Assembly: GCA_937871295.1 (NCBI GenBank)
Contig: CALMRE010000214.1
Span: 1-55,810, forward strand
Direction: 5' to 3'
Origin: an uncultured bacterium
Lineage (GTDB): Bacteria; UBP6; UBA1177; JAKLFG01
DNA: 55,810 bases
A model generated the notes under the pieces. It ran no database searches. It had not been told where the DNA came from and was given only the letters and a program-made list of their open reading frames with translations. A program made the position numbers and the translations under genes. Of the stretch, positions 18,196 through 26,224 are shown one piece after another. Numbering within the stretch: position 1 is the first letter of the stretch; every line of letters starts with the position of its first letter.

Positions 18196-19587
18196 CTATT
18201 TTTCCTCTTCCCGGAGACCGAAAAAGAAGGAGGTGACGAATTCGACCGTTTCGGCCGTTTTTTCTCTAGTGAATACGGAAGTTTCATCGCCGTATCGACG
18301 GTAAAGGAACAAGGCGTCGCGGAAATTGGCGAGACGATCGGTGTGGAGGGCATAACGAAGGGCGCGGCCGAACGGCGAAGAGCTCCCCGCTTCCTGCTCA
18401 TACCGTGAGACCGCCGCGATCATCGCTCCCGACAATAGACCGCTCGCCTCGCGGTAGGAATAGTCGCCCCGCGCGATAAGATAGTACACCACGGCAACAT
18501 CGCGCAGCCAGCGATCCTGTTCGACGAGATATATCTTCTCCCCTTTGATGCGGAACGGTATATTGTGGCGCGGATCGCACCCTTCCATCAGCGAAAGGGC
18601 GCGATTGTGCACGAACGGTTCGAAAAGATCGTCGCGGTGCGGCGCGAACATCGCCTGCCGTTCGTCGAAAAGCGCGCACCGTTGGTTATTATCATCGTCC
18701 GATAATGCGCCGTTCATACGCCGCCACCCGTCCGCATCGTCGGTCGCGATGAATTCCATATCGGGAAGCCGCGCGATATTATCCAGAGAGAAACGGCCCA
18801 TGAGACGAACGATATTTCCTACCGCGTCGCGTTCCCGGTGACGATCCTGCGCTTTTTTGGGAAGCGGCACCAGCGGCGCCAGTTTATCGGAGTAGGCCGG
18901 TTCGGCCGGCAGGAAGGTCCGGTCGCCGGCGGTAAAAAAGGCGAAAAAGGCCAGATAGGGCAGCAGTATCCCCTCCTTCCATAACGCATGGTACCGCTCG
19001 TACTGGGCCCTGAAAAAAGGATCCGCTGCGGCGGCCGGTCCGCTGCTGCTGGAGAAGAACAGCGCGAGCGACCGGTAAACCAGCCACGAATCGCGGCGCG
19101 AACCGCTCCGTCCTTCGGCGTACAGCGAAACCACCTGATCGAGGATGAAGAAGAAGCGCTCCGAGAGCTCCCCGGTCGAGAGCGTTCCGGAACGGGCGAA
19201 CAGATCGACCTCCTGCGGTACCCGTTTGATGCCGTTGATGACAAGAAATGCTATCTCGTCGCGGAACTGCTCCGCCGGAGCGCTCGAAGGGGCGCCGTTG
19301 ACCAGTTCGACGAGCGTCAGGAGGGCCGGCAGGAACTGTTCGGCGCGCAGGTAGTACCAGTAACGGTAGGCGGCGCTTGCCGGGGTATCGGGGAAACGGT
19401 CGAGATAATCGCCTAATGCGCCGGCGTCCGACACGAGTGCTTCCGCCACCTCGGCCGAAAAACATTCGGCCGCTTCGATGATATGAAATCCCGCGGGCAG
19501 TACGGCCGAAGCGGCGCAATGCGGCGCCGCGGCGGCAAGAAACGGCGAACAGAACAAGAAAAGTATCGCGGCGAGAAGGTACCGCAT
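18196..19587 (-). CDS. Exported protein of unknown function
   Basis: A 463-residue protein with a Sec signal peptide (MRYLLAAILFLFCSPFLAAAAP). The mature protein is largely alpha-helical by composition and contains several aromatic-rich helices ('ASAAYRYWYYLRAEQFLPAL', 'EGILLPYLAFFAFFTAGDR'). I do not recognise a family; the repeated helix pattern leaves a solenoid possible. The ATG directly follows the TAA of the Cys-rich lipoprotein gene (no gap), so it is translationally coupled and probably works with it. A T-rich stretch but no solid terminator hairpin follows the stop. Confidence 0.7.
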   Translation of the reverse strand: MRYLLAAILFLFCSPFLAAAAPHCAASAVLPAGFHIIEAAECFSAEVAEALVSDAGALGDYLDRFPDTPASAAYRYWYYLRAEQFLPALLTLVELVNGAPSSAPAEQFRDEIAFLVINGIKRVPQEVDLFARSGTLSTGELSERFFFILDQVVSLYAEGRSGSRRDSWLVYRSLALFFSSSSGPAAAADPFFRAQYERYHALWKEGILLPYLAFFAFFTAGDRTFLPAEPAYSDKLAPLVPLPKKAQDRHRERDAVGNIVRLMGRFSLDNIARLPDMEFIATDDADGWRRMNGALSDDDNNQRCALFDERQAMFAPHRDDLFEPFVHNRALSLMEGCDPRHNIPFRIKGEKIYLVEQDRWLRDVAVVYYLIARGDYSYREASGLLSGAMIAAVSRYEQEAGSSSPFGRALRYALHTDRLANFRDALFLYRRYGDETSVFTREKTAETVEFVTSFFFGLREEEK

Positions 19588-20049
19588 TTACCGTAAGGTC
19601 GGCGGCGCGCAGATACCCAAGGCGCCGTCGATATCTATCCCGAGACCGGCCGCCGCCTGTATTTGATCGTTGCAGATCATCCCGTCGGGACATTCGGCGC
19701 CGCTGTTGGCGGGGTCGCACCGCATGGCGCAGGCGTTCGGGTTATCGGCTATCAGCGTGCCGAAGACCGTCGTGCAGAAGGTTGCGACACAGTCGGGTTG
19801 CTTGCAATCGGCGTGGATCGCGCAGGCATCATACATACAGACGAAAGCATCATCGTCCGGCGTTTCCAGAGTATCCTCGTCACCGGCGGGTAGCGCCGTA
19901 TCGGTGAAGGTGTCCTTATCGGGAGGGTTCAGTTCGTCGGCATACTGATCCCAGAGGGTGCCGCCGCTCTTGGCGCCGGGCTCCGCGACGCAGGCAGAAA
20001 AAATGAACGCCGCAAACAGGCCGAGAAATATCCGCATCGTGTCGGTCAT
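19588..20049 (-). CDS. Small Cys-rich lipoprotein
   Basis: A 153-residue lipoprotein. The start at 20049 (MTDTMRIFLGLFAAFIFSAC) has AGGGG eight bases upstream; the lipidated Cys follows FSA. An acidic tether (GDEDTLETPDDDAF) leads to a compact Cys-rich domain with ten or so cysteines in paired spacing ('CMYDACAIHADCKQPDC', 'CAMRCDPANSGAECPDG'). The pattern is EGF/Kazal-like, but I cannot assign a family. The gene sits directly behind the terminator of the RRM gene, so its expression depends on read-through or an unseen start site. It is coupled to the following exported protein. Confidence 0.75.
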   Translation of the reverse strand: MTDTMRIFLGLFAAFIFSACVAEPGAKSGGTLWDQYADELNPPDKDTFTDTALPAGDEDTLETPDDDAFVCMYDACAIHADCKQPDCVATFCTTVFGTLIADNPNACAMRCDPANSGAECPDGMICNDQIQAAAGLGIDIDGALGICAPPTLR

Positions 20050-20061
20050 GATCAAACCCCT

Positions 20062-20092
20062 AAAAAAAAGGCCGGACACAGAGCCCGGCCTT
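20062..20092 (-). terminator. Rho-independent terminator of the RRM gene
   Basis: On the minus strand an 8-bp stem AAGGCCGG/CCGGCCTT (20092-20085 and 20075-20068) with a 9-nt loop, followed by a run of eight T (20069-20062). It is 24 bp after the RRM stop. The T-run is followed at once by the ribosome binding site of the next gene. Confidence 0.85.
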
Positions 20093-20116
20093 CGGAACAT
20101 CCCGTCTGATATCGTC

Positions 20117-20371
20117 TCAGAACTTCTTCGGACGAGCGATGTTGACCTTGATCCGGCGACCGTCCAGTTCCTGATCGTTCAGGCTCCGGATGGCGCGTTC
20201 CGCCGAATCTTCATCCGCCATTTCGACGAAACCGAAACCCTTGGACCGGCCGGTCTCACGATCGGTCACGATCTTGGCCGAGGTCACTTCGCCGAATTCA
20301 GAGAACATCTGTTTCAGGCCGTCCTCGGTCATACGGTAATTCACATTACCGACATACAGCTGCGTGGTCAT
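20117..20371 (-). CDS. Small RRM RNA-binding protein
   Basis: An 84-residue single RNA-recognition-motif protein of the bacterial cold-inducible Rbp type. RNP-2 is 'LYVGNV' (residues 4-9) and RNP-1 is 'KGFGFVEM' (around 44-51); both carry the aromatic residues that stack on RNA. The short C-terminal tail 'IARPKKF' replaces the glycine-rich tail found in cyanobacterial Rbps. The start at 20371 is set by GAGGG upstream and by the RRM fold beginning at MTTQLYVG; an open frame upstream of it is only the leader. It is probably an RNA chaperone or mRNA-binding protein. Confidence 0.93.
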   Translation of the reverse strand: MTTQLYVGNVNYRMTEDGLKQMFSEFGEVTSAKIVTDRETGRSKGFGFVEMADEDSAERAIRSLNDQELDGRRIKVNIARPKKF

Positions 20372-20492: not shown

Positions 20493-21620
20493 CTACTTTC
20501 CGCCGGTGTAGGTGTAGGCCTCGGGACAGGGCCGGATAAAGATCTCGCCGTTGGTCTTTTCATCGAAAAGTCCGGCGTTCGTCAAGGCACCGGCCACCGG
20601 TTCGGCAAGCGAGGAAGGGAGGATCATGGTGAGTTTTTCGCGCGCCGGGGAGAGTTTGCCCTGCGGTGTGGCGGGCGGCGGTGCCTGACGCAGGCGGCTG
20701 ACGGTGGCGCCGCTCGCGCCGGCATCCATCGCCACTTTCGCCAGATCGGTCGCGCGGCCTTCGGGACAGAGGACCGTGACATCGGTCAGGTCGCGCAGGT
20801 ATTTCCGTTTTTTCGAACGGGTGTGATCGCTCGTGCCGGTGAATTTACGCCGCCAGCCGGTCGACCCTTTGAGTTCGTCGAGCGCCGCGACGATCTGCCC
20901 GATGCTCGCCGCCGACAGGTGCCTGCCGACATAGAGCCGGGTATTGAGGAGGCCGCGCGCCACCGGATAGGTGAAGATGAACCCTTTGCCCGGCTGATCG
21001 AGTTTGCCCGCTTCGATAAGCCGCACCAACGCCCCCTGCGCATCATGGTGCGTGGTGATGATGTTGACGATCTCCTTCTCGGCCGGGATGGTGATGCGGA
21101 TAAGCCCCAGCTTATCGCGCAATCCGGCGCCGATGCCGTAGGTGACGCTCGGCACGCAGATGCCCATCTCGAGGGCGGCGCGTACGATGACATCGCCCTG
21201 ACCACGCTGGACGATGGTCGATATGCCGGTCAGATGCTGTATCATCGAATGACGCGCCGGATCACCGGGCGTCACAGCCGGTTCCTCTTCGGCGGAGCGA
21301 CCTTCGTCGTGAAGAAGTTCGATATGTTCGCTGTAGATGGAACCGCGCCCCTCCTGATCGAGCATCGCCGCATGGATGAGACGGTCCATGACCGGCAGTT
21401 CCTGCTCCAACGGCACGGTGAAACGATAGATGTCTATCATGTCGTCGACCAGCGTCTGGCCGCCCCGGAAGAACAGCCCGCGTTTCTCGCCGATCATGAT
21501 GGAACGGCCCGACTGGACATAGGGCCGCGGGATACCCATGCCGGCAAGCGTGGCGGCGACCGTCTTGGATATCTCCTGATAGACCTCACAGGTTATCTTG
21601 GCGCAGATCGTCCGTTTCAT
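20493..21620 (-). CDS. Protein with three PII (GlnB)-like domains
   Basis: A 375-residue soluble protein with three PII-like ferredoxin-fold segments. About 1-105 has 'RGGQTLVDDMIDIYRFTVP' and ends in 'GRGSIYSEHIELL'. About 125-235 has 'GLIRITIPAEKEIVNIITTH', then 'GKGFIFTYPVARGLL'. A degenerate third runs from about 278 to 375 ('DVTVLCPEGRATDLAKVAM', ending 'GEIFIRPCPEAYTY'). The 'G-x-G-x-I/F' strand with tyrosine/phenylalanine matches the PII C-terminal strand. Such proteins accompany DUF1538 transport proteins. The start ATG overlaps the DUF1538 stop (ATGA). A small-molecule or nucleotide sensor gating the membrane protein is the natural inference. Confidence 0.8.
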   Translation of the reverse strand: MKRTICAKITCEVYQEISKTVAATLAGMGIPRPYVQSGRSIMIGEKRGLFFRGGQTLVDDMIDIYRFTVPLEQELPVMDRLIHAAMLDQEGRGSIYSEHIELLHDEGRSAEEEPAVTPGDPARHSMIQHLTGISTIVQRGQGDVIVRAALEMGICVPSVTYGIGAGLRDKLGLIRITIPAEKEIVNIITTHHDAQGALVRLIEAGKLDQPGKGFIFTYPVARGLLNTRLYVGRHLSAASIGQIVAALDELKGSTGWRRKFTGTSDHTRSKKRKYLRDLTDVTVLCPEGRATDLAKVAMDAGASGATVSRLRQAPPPATPQGKLSPAREKLTMILPSSLAEPVAGALTNAGLFDEKTNGEIFIRPCPEAYTYTGGK

Positions 21621-23752
21621 GGCGTCACCTCCACCGCTTCCTGCGTAGCCGCGTCCGATCCTTCGGTATCGCTGATGACCTTCTTCCGTTTACGCGCCGC
21701 GTAAAGGCCGGTGAGCAGGACCGAGAGTACCGGATAGGCCGATGCCATCGCAAGTATGCCGAACCCCTCGACCGCACCTATCCGGGTACTGATGCCCAAC
21801 CCCATCGCGAGCACGAGCGGCACCGTCACCGGACCGGTGGTGACCCCGGCGCTGTCCCAGCCGATGTTCACATACTCTTCGCTCGAGAGTTTCGTGACCA
21901 CCATAAGCGTCAGGTAGGGCGGCGCCAGCAGCCAGATGAGCGGAATGTCCCAGATGATCTTCGCCACGCCGAAGGCGATGCCGACGCCAACCCCCACCGC
22001 GACCGCCTGCATGAGGAACGATTTCTTGAAGGTGCCGACCGTGAGTTCCTCGACCTTGAGACCAAGCGCGTTGAGGGCCGGTTCGGCGAGCGTCGCGCCG
22101 TACCCCATCAGGAAGCCGAACAGGAGCACCACGAAGATGCCCCAGAAACTCCGTTCGCCGCCGAACAGCGGTCCCACCTGAGGGATGTAGGTGTAGGTAG
22201 CGGTCATATCGTCATAGTTCTTTTCGTTGTACGGTATCGTTTCGACCTGTCGCCCGTTCTTGCGGTAGAAGAAGGTCTCTATGCCGCCGTCGCCGGAGAC
22301 CGCCTTCTCGACCACATCGGGGGTGAAATTGCGGATGGTCTCCCGCTTTTCGTTGAGCGGCAGGGTGGTGAACGATGAGGGCAGTTTTCCCCCCACCTGA
22401 TCGCCGATCTTCGACAGCCCCGTCTCCATGCCGATATTGAAGAGTCCCATGCCGATGACCGCCACGATGATGCCGAAGGCTATCTCGTCGGTGCGCGGCA
22501 GTTTCTCCCGCAGGATAAGGAAGAAGACCAGCAGCATGAAGAGGGTCAGGGGAATGATCGCCTGCGCCGCCGTCTGGAAGTTGCGCAGGAAGAGCGCCGC
22601 CGCGTCTATGAGCGCCGGCTTATCGGGGGCGTTGAGATATTCGCGCGCCGCCTTGACCGATCCGAAGAGCGATATCTTCTCCTCCACCGCGCCGTTGCGG
22701 GCGACCCAACTCATGAAGCGGGTCTCTTCGGGTCCGAAGATGCGCGACCGCTCCGAACCGTTCCCCGCCATCTCGGCGACGAAGGCGCGACGTGATGCAT
22801 CGCTGTCGAAATAGCTGGTGATCCCCTCCCTGCTGCCATGCACGAACGCATAGCGCAGAAGTTCGTCGTCGCTTTCGAAAAGGGCAAGGGCGGTATCGCG
22901 GTTGTCGGGCGACAGAAAGCGCGTCTCCTCCATCGGTTGCGGCACGCTTTTGAGAAAAAAGACCCCCAGCAGAAGGACGGTGAGTATCGGGAAGAGCGAC
23001 GCAAGCGTCACTACGCCGAAGCCCGATGCTCCGCCGGTGTCGCTCGAACCGACGATGCGGGTGATGCCGATGCCGAGCGCAAGGACCAGCGGCACCGTCA
23101 CCGGACCGGTCGTCACCGCGCCGCAATCCCACGCCAGTCCGGTGAGATAGAGCAGATTCGGATCGAACGCGGCCCAGATCGAAAGCACCGTCAGGAGCGG
23201 CACCATGATATACAGGAACGGTTTCAAGGACCAGTTGTAGAGGAACCGCAGCATGCCGAACACGACCGCCACTCCGACCCCCGCGCCCACCGCGAAGACC
23301 AGATAGTTCGCGTGGCTGTTAAGGAGCAGGAACAGGAGCGGAGCATCCCACGCCTTCACGGCGCTGCCGAGTATCTTGAGCGCCCCGATGGCCGGCTCGG
23401 CAAACGTCACGCCGAATCCGAGTATGAGCGAGAAGGCCAGTATCACCGCCAGCCCCGCCCGCTGAGGCAGTTTGATACCGATGAGTTCGCCCAGCGGCAT
23501 CAGGCCGAGGAGCAGCCCTTCCATGAAGAAGGTGAGACCGATGATGACCATCGCCATGCCGAAGGTGATGATGGATGCGTCGAGGATGGGTATGCCGAGA
23601 ACAAGTATCTGGAACAGGACGAGATAGAGGATGATGAGCCAGACGGAGCGGACCTGCTCCATCACGCGGCTTTTTATATACGGTAGAATGAGGCCGATGG
23701 CCTGCTGGAAGGATATCCTGATGCGTTTGCCGCCGCCCGTGTTCTGTGCCAT
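21617..23752 (-). CDS. Tandem DUF1538 integral membrane transport protein
   Basis: A 711-residue inner-membrane protein with two homologous DUF1538 halves. Each half has a 'FAEPAIGALKILG / LAEPALNALGLKV' helix and a 'WDCGAVTTGPVTVPLVLALGIG' or 'WDSAGVTTGPVTVPLVLAMG' signature, a reentrant-looking Gly/Pro/Thr motif likely to line the transport path. The halves are joined by a roughly 200-residue soluble stretch (about 310-510). Many glycine-rich helices are present. Related UmpA/UmpB proteins have been proposed as cation/proton antiporters; here both halves are in one chain. I recall that assignment, it is not visible in the sequence. The start at 23752 has GGAGGGGAG upstream. Confidence 0.88.
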   Translation of the reverse strand: MAQNTGGGKRIRISFQQAIGLILPYIKSRVMEQVRSVWLIILYLVLFQILVLGIPILDASIITFGMAMVIIGLTFFMEGLLLGLMPLGELIGIKLPQRAGLAVILAFSLILGFGVTFAEPAIGALKILGSAVKAWDAPLLFLLLNSHANYLVFAVGAGVGVAVVFGMLRFLYNWSLKPFLYIMVPLLTVLSIWAAFDPNLLYLTGLAWDCGAVTTGPVTVPLVLALGIGITRIVGSSDTGGASGFGVVTLASLFPILTVLLLGVFFLKSVPQPMEETRFLSPDNRDTALALFESDDELLRYAFVHGSREGITSYFDSDASRRAFVAEMAGNGSERSRIFGPEETRFMSWVARNGAVEEKISLFGSVKAAREYLNAPDKPALIDAAALFLRNFQTAAQAIIPLTLFMLLVFFLILREKLPRTDEIAFGIIVAVIGMGLFNIGMETGLSKIGDQVGGKLPSSFTTLPLNEKRETIRNFTPDVVEKAVSGDGGIETFFYRKNGRQVETIPYNEKNYDDMTATYTYIPQVGPLFGGERSFWGIFVVLLFGFLMGYGATLAEPALNALGLKVEELTVGTFKKSFLMQAVAVGVGVGIAFGVAKIIWDIPLIWLLAPPYLTLMVVTKLSSEEYVNIGWDSAGVTTGPVTVPLVLAMGLGISTRIGAVEGFGILAMASAYPVLSVLLTGLYAARKRKKVISDTEGSDAATQEAVEVTP

Positions 23753-23781
23753 GTCTCTCCCCTCCGGTTCAGGACCGAGGC

Positions 23782-23810
23782 ATGCTACCACCGTCGCGGG
23801 GGCAAGTCAA
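23782..23810 (-). promoter_or_regulatory. Promoter of the DUF1538/PII-like operon
   Basis: Minus strand TTGACT (23810-23805), 17-bp spacer, TAGCAT (23787-23782). It overlaps an A/T palindrome (TCAAAAA-C-TTTTTTGA) just after the preceding stop. Confidence 0.55.
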
Positions 23811-23836: not shown

Positions 23837-26224
23837 TCACAATTCGTCGAAATCGGCGCAATCGAGCAGCGTATTGCCGGCGGTGAAGCAGAGACAGTCG
23901 TCGGTCGTCGGCCAGTAGATGCCGAGCGATGCGGGGTCGTCGACCAGTTGCATGTTGCCGAATATCTTCAGCGTCTCCCCTACCGCGAAATCGGTGTTGT
24001 CGGCGTAGCACGGCAAAAGCGACGCATCGGCATCGTTCGCGTCACGCGCCGCGACGAAACACTTCTTGTAGGATATGTCGCTCCCCCGTATCTTCTGCTC
24101 ATAATCGTACAGACCGAAGTAGAATTCGCCCGCTTCGGTCAGCGTCGCGGCGCTGTCGGTCTTCGCGGTGACCAGCGCCTGCGCCGGCACGACAAGTTCG
24201 CTCGCCTTGAAACGGTAGGTATTGTCGCCCAGCGCCTCGAGATCGCCGAAACTCTGGACGATCAACACCTCGGTCCCCAGTCCGTTGTCGCTCCGCATCG
24301 CGAAGTTGTTGTAGGAGGAGGCCTCGAAAAAGGCACCGCCGGCCATGAACTGATGGTCTGTCTCCCCCTCCTCCGGTATCTGCGCGGCGGGGTCGTTGAT
24401 CGGACCGACGAAACGGTAGTGCGCAAAAGAATCGCCCGCGGCGGCGAAATAATTCTCCGGCACCGCACAGCCGAAATCATCGGCTATCGTCCGGCACGCC
24501 GTGACGCCCCCCTGATCGTCGAAGCACTGACACTGTTGCTGTTCCAAGATATCCTCCGAAAGGGGCAGATAGGCGAAAAGACGCACTTCTTCGCCGACCG
24601 AAAAATCTTCATTGCGCTGTGTGCAGAACAGGAAACGGGCCGTCTCGTCGGCGGGCATTCCCAGCGTGCAGCGTTTTGTCGTTCGATTATTGACGGTATC
24701 GTACCAGTAGTCGAGGCGGGCATAGGTGAGTCCGCTCAATTCGACCGGGCCGCCAGCCCCGTTCTTCGCCGCCTCCAGTTCGGCTATCGGTACCGACAGT
24801 TCAACGCGCCGCACCCTCACCTCGCCGGTGTAGTAGCGCTCCACTTCGGGGCATTCCTCCATCAGATAAAGATTCCTCTTCTCCCCGTCGTCGTACCGGA
24901 AGGCATATTCTTTGCAGAAAAGGTTCTCGCTGCCGGTCCCCGCCGAGTAATAATAGTACCCGGCACCGGTCACCGGATCGGCGGCGCTGATGTCGTTGAT
25001 GGGACCTTTGAAACGTATCGTCTCGTAGCGGTCCGCCGCCGGATCGGGGCGCAGGTCCATGTAAGCACAGTCATCGGCCACCGGGAACGGCGTCGACTTG
25101 AGAAAAATAGCCACTATCAGATCCCGGAGATAGCCGTTGTCGCCGGAAACCGGGTAGTTTGCCTGCAATACGAAGGCGGTCTTTATCGAGGGGAAATAGA
25201 CCAGTTCGCCGTTGAAATTGACGAGCGAACCGTTATGTCCGTAGCCCTCGCCGAGGGCCGCATTGTCATAATGAAGAACGCCGAGCCCGTATATCTCCTC
25301 GTCACCGGTCGAGACGAAGGTGAGCATCTCGTCAAGCATGGCGGTCGACAGCAGCCAGCCGCCGAAAAGGCGCGTAGCGAAATGGGCAAGATCGGCCACG
25401 CTCGATACGATGCCGCCGTCGGACCACGCCGGGTTGTCGGCCGTATAGGAATAGGGCGCATCGCCCTCATACAGATGACCGCCCGCGAGCATGCCGAGCA
25501 GTCCCTCGTCCGTTTCGAGACTCGTGACCGGCAACTCCGCCTCCTCGAAGATCTCGCGGCGCAGAAAGTCGGCCAGCGTCTCTTCCGCGACCTGTTCGAT
25601 GATGCGACCGAGGAAGATGTAGTTGGTGTTTGAATAGGCCCACCCCGCGCCCGGTTCGAAATAGCGGGGCATACCGGCCGAGACGGCGATGATCTCCTCG
25701 GGAGACCCCGACACGGCATAATCGCTGATGCCGGAGGTGTGATTGAGCAGCATCCGCACGGTGATGCGATCGGACTCGGGATAGTCGGGGTACCACTTCT
25801 CCAGTTTGTCGCCGAGCGTTATTTTCTGCTTCTCGGTAAGCCGCAGTATCGCCGTGGCCACGAACATCTTGGTGATGCTCGCGACACGGAAAAGCATATC
25901 GGGGGTCAGCGTCGACGCCTCTTCGACATCGGCCGTACCGGCGGCGACGGTCACAACCGCCCTGCTGCGGGAGTCCTCAATAGCGGCCGCTATCCCGGCG
26001 CCGTTGGTGAAAATGAGATGTTCCTTGAGAAGCACGGCGATCCCCTCCTTCAGCGCGGCATTGTCGCTGTCGGGGCTCTCGTCGGCCGTCTCATCGTCAG
26101 GTTCGACAACGGCGTCCAGATCAGGAAAGGCGAAATCGTTGTCATATACTTGCGCCTCTTCCCGGCAGGCCGTCATGATCGCAACAACGATCACCGCCGC
26201 CGTCACATAGACGGAACTCCTCAT
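23837..26224 (-). CDS. Serine beta-lactamase-fold lipoprotein with duplicated C-terminal module
   Basis: A 795-residue lipoprotein (AIMTAC, C20) with an acidic tether (about 27-56). Residues about 58-390 are a class-C beta-lactamase/penicillin-binding-protein-like hydrolase: S116-I-T-K119, Y197-S-N199 and a later H-N-G in place of KTG, as in many esterase or D-peptidase members. Residues about 390-795 hold two copies of an unrecognised module. Each starts near 'RF[KV]GPIND', contains a Cys about 120-150 residues on, then 'DF[SA]VGE' and ends in a 'C-x-C-F...C' cluster. The start at 26224 has GGGAGG upstream. A cell-envelope peptidase or esterase is likely; the role of the module is unknown. 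Confidence 0.87.
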   Translation of the reverse strand: MRSSVYVTAAVIVVAIMTACREEAQVYDNDFAFPDLDAVVEPDDETADESPDSDNAALKEGIAVLLKEHLIFTNGAGIAAAIEDSRSRAVVTVAAGTADVEEASTLTPDMLFRVASITKMFVATAILRLTEKQKITLGDKLEKWYPDYPESDRITVRMLLNHTSGISDYAVSGSPEEIIAVSAGMPRYFEPGAGWAYSNTNYIFLGRIIEQVAEETLADFLRREIFEEAELPVTSLETDEGLLGMLAGGHLYEGDAPYSYTADNPAWSDGGIVSSVADLAHFATRLFGGWLLSTAMLDEMLTFVSTGDEEIYGLGVLHYDNAALGEGYGHNGSLVNFNGELVYFPSIKTAFVLQANYPVSGDNGYLRDLIVAIFLKSTPFPVADDCAYMDLRPDPAADRYETIRFKGPINDISAADPVTGAGYYYYSAGTGSENLFCKEYAFRYDDGEKRNLYLMEECPEVERYYTGEVRVRRVELSVPIAELEAAKNGAGGPVELSGLTYARLDYWYDTVNNRTTKRCTLGMPADETARFLFCTQRNEDFSVGEEVRLFAYLPLSEDILEQQQCQCFDDQGGVTACRTIADDFGCAVPENYFAAAGDSFAHYRFVGPINDPAAQIPEEGETDHQFMAGGAFFEASSYNNFAMRSDNGLGTEVLIVQSFGDLEALGDNTYRFKASELVVPAQALVTAKTDSAATLTEAGEFYFGLYDYEQKIRGSDISYKKCFVAARDANDADASLLPCYADNTDFAVGETLKIFGNMQLVDDPASLGIYWPTTDDCLCFTAGNTLLDCADFDEL

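Follow-up and report, generated by a model that had tools for sequence, protein, structure and literature searches.

Organization of the locus

The DNA examined here, referred to as the window, is a 55,810-nucleotide stretch (contig CALMRE010000214.1 of assembly GCA_937871295.1) from an uncultured bacterium placed in the phylum UBP6. It carries on the reverse strand two overlapping genes, one for a 375-residue protein composed of three PII-type units (P0001) and one for a 711-residue membrane protein in which two DUF1538 domains are fused (P0002). Both open reading frames (ORFs) and their ATGA overlap had been described in an original prediction made from the sequence, and they are present as given there. 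The main features are:

21617..23752 (-): fused double-DUF1538 membrane protein P0002, 711 residues (ORF, PF07556)
20493..21620 (-): triple-PII protein P0001, 375 residues (ORF and three PII units)
21617..21620 (-): ATGA stop-start overlap of both genes (sequence)
21625..21632 (-): Shine-Dalgarno-like GGAGGTGA ahead of the triple-PII start, within the DUF1538 gene (read from the sequence)
23782..23810 (-): promoter-like site TTGACT-17-TAGCAT, with TG preceding the second hexamer (consensus match only)

For the DUF1538 gene two start codons were considered. The ATG at 23752, which has a GGAGG-type ribosome site immediately upstream and gives 711 residues, appears the likelier start than the GTG at 23791, which would give 724 residues. 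A chance pair of ORFs was ruled out by the conservation of the encoded proteins at 37-86% identity.

Three PII-type units in one polypeptide

The structure of the 375-residue protein was predicted with AlphaFold2 using an alignment (A1) of sequences from the phylum and from Desulfobacterota-type genomes; with near-identical sequences left out, it comprised 19 of the 29 triple-PII loci found up to that point. The model, with a mean predicted local distance difference test score (pLDDT) of 79.6 and a predicted template modeling score (pTM) of 0.81, contains three complete ferredoxin-like β-α-β-β-α-β units (residues 2-104, 127-224 and 278-365), which we call D1, D2 and D3:

21309..21617 (-): PII unit D1, residues 2-104, the most diverged (secondary structure, hhalign 96.6%, conservation)
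20949..21242 (-): PII unit D2, residues 127-224, the most conserved (secondary structure, hhalign 99.3%, conservation)
21069..21143 (-): T-loop and hinge of D2, residues 160-184, GxGxGxRDxxGLxRxxIPAEKE (model, conservation)
20799..20945 (-): linker between D2 and D3, residues 226-274 (alignment, conservation)
20526..20789 (-): PII unit D3, residues 278-365 (secondary structure, hhalign 97.0%, PDB profile matches, PF00543 in homologue L027)

The structures that Foldseek retrieved from the PDB with this model were mostly PII or GlnK chains at a probability of 1.00, the best being 1qy7 (E 5e-4); the single row ranked above it has a template modeling (TM) score of 0.19. Sequence relation to PII proteins was examined with hhalign against a profile built from 11 PII units, which were drawn from DUF1538 operons and from related single PIIs. 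D1, D2 and D3 matched at probabilities of 96.6%, 99.3% and 97.0% with scores of 56, 110 and 60, respectively, while 20 column shuffles reached at most 2.0% and a score of 17.2, and reversed profiles stayed below 18. Comparison of the units with each other gave 96.2% for D1-D2, 66.2% for D2-D3 and 11.0% for D1-D3. The family profile found solved PII structures separately via D3, via D2 and weakly via D1 (E 0.21). The PII family PF00543 was detected above its cut-off in D3 of homologue L027 (29.3 bits versus 25) and at E ≤ 0.1 in 12 of the 19 aligned members. Searches with the single sequence returned an irrelevant RecX match (E 0.12) as the sole NCBIfam result and, among PDB sequences, invertase inhibitors only (E ~0.26).

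A second structural comparison, with VIA-align, placed AcrB-type efflux pumps at the top (Z 7.7, root-mean-square deviation (rmsd) 6.5), which we read as a probably generic ferredoxin-like resemblance of the model. PII chains matched D1 and D3 with Z values of about 6, and D2 alone was absent among the best 50 rows. Some of the PII rows span model residues 6 to ~362, a possible sign of a closed-ring contact between D3 and D1 on which we do not rely.

All three units thus combine the ferredoxin-like fold with the sequence relation to PII that define the PII superfamily, and the presence of three PII-type units in one chain is confirmed. The three joined segments had been proposed in the original prediction, which named a fold without three such units as one of two outcomes that would overturn the idea. 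Structure prediction of the protein alone yielded the three units instead of a fold that lacks them, and in the segment-by-segment profile comparison, a further check named there, each third matched PII.

Divergence of the units

Conservation was analyzed in a set of 20 sequences, from which fragments shorter than 330 residues (L019, L025 and L030) were left out and to which L080-L083 were added. Positions that are at least 95% identical are distributed very unevenly, with 6 of 108 in D1, 29 of 100 in D2, 8 of 49 in the D2-D3 linker, including W256 and R257, and 15 of 96 in D3. The named residues of the D2 T-loop occur in 20 of 20 sequences except I178, A180 and E181, which occur in 19; in the model, residues 169-178 of this loop have low confidence and are flexible. 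No conserved T-loop of the D2 kind was seen in D1 or D3 in these 20 sequences. Specialised sites had been suggested as a possibility, and the conservation counts and the hhalign values agree that they have diverged from one another.

The elements expected around a ligand site are also unequally distributed. The B-loop GxG is kept in D1 (G91, G93) and in D2, in 20 of 20 sequences each, whereas in D3 the first glycine is lost and the second is kept in 19 of 20 (one gap). The B-loop sequences are EGRGS in D1, PGKGF in D2 and TNGE in D3, and the RTGE tail is absent. The GAxGAT turn is kept in D3 and replaced in D1 and D2. Classical PII proteins bind adenosine triphosphate (ATP) or ADP and 2-oxoglutarate, and their motifs for ATP are the B-loop GxGK and the C-loop RxRTGE. 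Both are missing here, and with three domains per chain instead of a single-domain subunit the protein is not a classical PII. In classical PII proteins the nucleotide cleft lies between the GAxGAT-type turn of one subunit and the B-loop of its neighbor. Because D2 keeps the B-loop and D3 the turn, a single intact ligand cleft may remain between D2 and D3.

The fused DUF1538 transporter

The partner membrane protein contains two PF07556 (DUF1538) stretches in one chain, with an E value of 2e-106 and 354.4 bits against a cut-off of 22.6, which bears out the fusion of two DUF1538 halves that had been suspected. The domains and inserts are as follows:

22958..23635 (-): first DUF1538 domain, UmpA-like half (PF07556 175 bits; best UmpA stretch 29-265)
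22631..22927 (-): soluble helical insert between the halves, ~residues 276-374 (alignment)
21704..22546 (-): second DUF1538 domain, UmpB-like half (PF07556 190.2 bits; best UmpB stretch 521-680)
22148..22372 (-): β-rich insert in the second half, ~residues 461-535 (alignment)

The helical insert is mostly absent from the relatives L102-L106 and L115, and the β-rich insert occurs in each of the 19 triple-PII-group transporters that were aligned. In NCBIfam the halves match UmpA and then UmpB, in the same order as in UmpAB, which likewise has two DUF1538 halves. The protein differs from UmpAB in that the halves are fused in a 711-residue chain, that two soluble inserts are present, that a PII gene is paired with it, and that its scores lie below the equivalog cut-offs.

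The substrate had been considered entirely unknown, a view that needs correction: UmpAB of Halomonas zhaodongensis, a DUF1538 pair, was reported to form a heterodimer with Na+(Li+,K+)/H+ antiporter activity, optimal at pH 9.0 (PMC5484666). DUF1538 is furthermore listed in another study among the genes informative for optimal growth pH (PMC13255231). By homology the fused 711-residue protein would be a monovalent cation/H+ exchanger.

The top VIA-align row for the DUF1538 model was the Na+/Ca2+ exchanger NCX_Mj (3v5u; Z 5.3 over 167 residues, rmsd 5.5). This row lies below the VIA-align background and is a lead only, of the kind expected of a two-half cation exchanger.

Conservation of the gene pair

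The triple-PII gene was found in 22 of the 28 genomes of the phylum, and DUF1538 in the same 22, with the two genes adjacent in every case. The six genomes that lack the one are the six that lack the other. Outside the phylum, the first Desulfobacterota-type loci showed an adjoining DUF1538 gene in four of five genomes, while in the fifth a contig end marks the beginning of the locus, and a sample of 395 genomes added four further full-length triple-PII cases besides G032, all adjoining DUF1538. Of 20 operon loci, 16 have overlapping genes, and in the other four the genes are 15-190 bases apart. The pair shows the conserved genetic linkage that characterizes PII-regulated transporters of the SbtB and GlnK type. 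Lack of co-occurrence in other genomes, the outcome that would have spoken against the proposed pair, was not seen.

PF00543 was not found at E ≤ 0.001 in any of the 28 phylum genomes and was detected in 13 of 14 control genomes; CutA1 was not found in the source genome, the one genome searched for it. Apart from the triple-PII chain, these searches for PF00543 and CutA1 thus brought up no PII-type protein in the source genome. Glutamine synthetase is encoded in all 28 phylum genomes and an ammonium transporter (Amt) in two, including the source genome, where the latter lies at G000:C31:26239-27417 (L148) though a PF00543 PII was not found anywhere in that genome.

PII genes at other DUF1538 loci and origin of the triple chain

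Among 297 genomes of the Desulfobacterota-type phylum, 18 contain DUF1538, and in 15 of these a PII gene adjoins it; in the other three (G300, G307 and G328) no PII was seen and the DUF1538 matches are partial. The adjoining PII chains carry one, two or three PII domains. Three of the outside genomes with a triple chain encode a further DUF1538 pair, after which comes a gene for a single PII of ~115 residues (L074-L076); Pfam recognizes this PII (tested on L074, 48.5 bits). A Chelativorans plasmid (L147) encodes DUF1538, DUF1538 and then an annotated 'P-II family nitrogen regulator'. These loci and L119-L127 share the gene order of the pair studied here, and both sides are homologous; they differ in having one or two PII domains and, mostly, separate DUF1538 genes. 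A fused transporter is likewise encoded beside two-PII chains (L123, L127) and, at L128, beside a PII gene truncated by the end of the contig. Both the PII-DUF1538 pairing and the transporter fusion are real, as originally noted, but neither is special to this locus.

A tree of both DUF1538 halves was calculated from 31 tips with two clear halves, with L091 dropped as a duplicate of L128. In the coding of PII number L101, where the contig ends inside the gene, was set to three by hand, and the contig-cut PII of L128 was coded as one. All 17 transporters of the triple-PII group fall into a single clade (bootstrap 100), which gives the triple chain a single origin. Since the two-PII chains sit in a separate clade, tandem PII chains arose at least twice. 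The sister of the triple-PII clade is L128, in which the PII gene opens with a D2-like unit and is then cut off by the contig end; because it already has a fused transporter, transporter fusion probably preceded PII triplication in this group.

Two-PII chains adjoin DUF1538 at L119-L121, L123, L127 and L093, and the one at L090 adjoins another transporter instead. The RGTG...PEKE motif has been lost from the N-terminal unit of both L093 and L090, and asymmetry therefore seems to arise in these chains as well. PII-like genes also lie directly downstream of a gene for a 410-463-residue membrane protein at L090 (33-1977) and L092 (1474-3279); this membrane protein may be an NhaD-type antiporter. 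Single-domain PII genes for proteins of 101-108 residues with D2-like sequence occur at L084 (1486-1800), L085 (1474-1797) and L086 (1486-1791). They adjoin a short membrane protein (~158 residues in L085 and L086) rather than DUF1538, and are possibly another PII/membrane-protein pair.

Relation to known PII-transporter systems

PII-regulated transporters are already known, among them SbtA-SbtB, AmtB-GlnK and the PII-NG/CzcABC operon of Geobacter sulfurreducens. SbtB forms homotrimers from single-domain subunits and SbtA does not belong to DUF1538, whereas the present pair has three PII domains per chain and a DUF1538 transporter. PII-NG has a single PII domain and CzcABC is an unrelated pump. 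Similarly, GlnK is a classical PII homotrimer and its transporter is of a different kind. The likeness lies in the combination: SbtA and SbtB are a transporter gene and a PII-like regulator in one operon, and PMC8352866 presents a T-loop gating model in which SbtB on SbtA inserts its T-loop into the transporter, as does GlnK on AmtB, whose T-loop in the pore is cited there. The divergent PII-NG lies in an operon with a proton/cation antiporter (PMC7726332).

Neither a chain with several PII domains nor a general link between DUF1538 and PII was found described in the literature searched, which mostly did not extend to subscription journals and preprints. PII is not mentioned in the text of the UmpAB paper (PMC5484666), and the 'three PII domains' of PMC1779786 are a lid formed by three chains.

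Proposed mechanism and alternatives

We propose that the locus encodes a PII-regulated cation/proton antiporter in which both partners are fused, the triple chain being an asymmetric PII trimer that gates the transporter, and we assign this reading a probability of roughly 60%. The UmpA-like and UmpB-like halves of the 711-residue chain would exchange a monovalent cation for H+, and the three PII units of the 375-residue chain would fold together as one asymmetric trimer. D2 would supply the sole conserved T-loop, which would dock on the cytoplasmic side of the transporter, and a small ligand in an inter-unit cleft, probably an adenine nucleotide, would set the position of this loop and thereby open or block transport. 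The reading as a single-chain asymmetric trimer is favored because only D2 keeps a conserved T-loop in the 20 sequences. With three domains that are nearly equal, a pTM of 0.81 would also call for a defined mutual arrangement. T-loop gating by the triple chain is suggested by the precedents of SbtB on SbtA, GlnK on AmtB and the Geobacter PII encoded with an antiporter.

Several observations weigh against this proposal. The triple-PII protein alone gave no Pfam family at E ≤ 10, so the PF00543 cut-off is not reached, and the resemblance between D1 and D3 is weak (hhalign 11%). In VIA-align the PII rows, at Z values of about 6, are not above unrelated ferredoxin-like rows (AcrB 7.7), and none of the best 50 rows matches the whole three-unit arrangement. 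ATP binding is uncertain because the chain has neither the lysine of the classical PII B-loop nor the classical C-loop. On the transporter side, the halves score 192.8 and 154 against cut-offs of 490 and 500 for the UmpA and UmpB equivalogs NF041627 and NF041628, Foldseek returned nothing at E ≤ 0.001 for the model, and the antiport assignment of the family derives from one study in E. coli KNabc.

The best surviving alternative keeps the regulator as proposed and lets the transporter move something besides Na+, K+ or Li+, such as another cation or a small solute. The low UmpA and UmpB scores and the two extra soluble inserts would fit this, and UmpAB (PMC5484666) is the one DUF1538 pair with a reported activity that turned up in the literature searched. 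The PF07556 match is nevertheless unambiguous, the order of the UmpA and UmpB halves is matched, and DUF1538 is among the genes listed as informative for growth pH in PMC13255231; we consider a different substrate doubtful.

Somewhat less favored, and in our view unlikely, is an association of three chains into stacked homotrimeric rings, one each of D1, D2 and D3, which would present three D2 T-loops to a trimeric transporter. PII-family proteins are known as homotrimers, and the SbtB trimer sits on an SbtA trimer (PMC8352866). Two-PII chains (L119-L121, L123 and L127) cannot close a trimer alone, and stacked rings would accommodate both two- and three-unit chains. However, the single-chain model is confident in the overall arrangement, a three-unit chain needs no partners, and stacked rings do not require the strong divergence seen between the units.

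It is very unlikely that the triple-PII protein is a general regulator of nitrogen or carbon status with the transporter merely as a neighbor. The protein is the only PII-type one found (PF00543 in 0 of 28 genomes, CutA1 in 0 of 1) and glutamine synthetase is universal in the phylum, but the triple-PII gene is missing exactly where DUF1538 is missing, Amt occurs in only 2 of 28 genomes, and the linkage to DUF1538 holds for the single PIIs of other lineages too. It is highly improbable that D1 and D3 derive from some ACT-like or other generic module of ferredoxin-like fold and not from PII: the missing Pfam match and the weak D1-D3 similarity are outweighed by hhalign probabilities of 96.6% and 97.0% against shuffles of at most 2%, by PF00543 above its cut-off in D3 of a homologue, and by the PII structures matched in D3 with the family profile.

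The gated-antiporter proposal can be narrowed further, at odds that we regard as being against it. In this tentative version the protein would be a naturally occurring PII 'heterotrimer' made of a single chain, in which one T-loop works and one cleft (D2/D3) is intact, gating a fused antiporter one to one, and a lineage without recognizable canonical PII would keep PII signaling only in this hidden form.

Transcription and flanking genes

A single promoter for the overlapping pair had been proposed. A promoter-like site does lie directly upstream (23810-23782), but as a consensus match it is only suggestive because the 4.4-kb region contains four such sites against a mean of 1.1 in shuffles. 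The nearest downstream terminator-like hairpin on the same strand (20093-20067 (-)) lies past the next gene, and the transcript may therefore extend beyond the two genes.

The gene directly 3' of the pair (20117-20371 (-)) encodes an RNA-binding protein with an RNA recognition motif (RRM; PF00076, 1e-27). Further on, 18196-20100 (-) encodes proteins of 463 and 170 residues, neither with a Pfam match at E ≤ 0.01, the latter being lipoprotein-like. Upstream of the pair, 23837-26224 (-) encodes a 795-residue beta-lactamase-family protein with PF00144 at residues 84-369; its long C-terminal remainder matches no Pfam family at E ≤ 0.01.

Implications

PII proteins have been studied as symmetric homotrimers, in which the roles of single sites and T-loops are hard to separate. 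A naturally asymmetric chain would make it possible to ask what one T-loop and one ligand cleft can do. The series of loci with one, two and three PII domains suggests that DUF1538 cation/proton antiporters are PII-regulated in general, and it gives a direct route to asking what these transporters sense. The joining of three PII units in a protein encoded beside a fused transporter suggests that a regulator normally made of three identical copies has become one lopsided chain. In the phylum as a whole, PF00543 PII seems to be missing from all 28 genomes, yet 22 carry the triple-PII protein.

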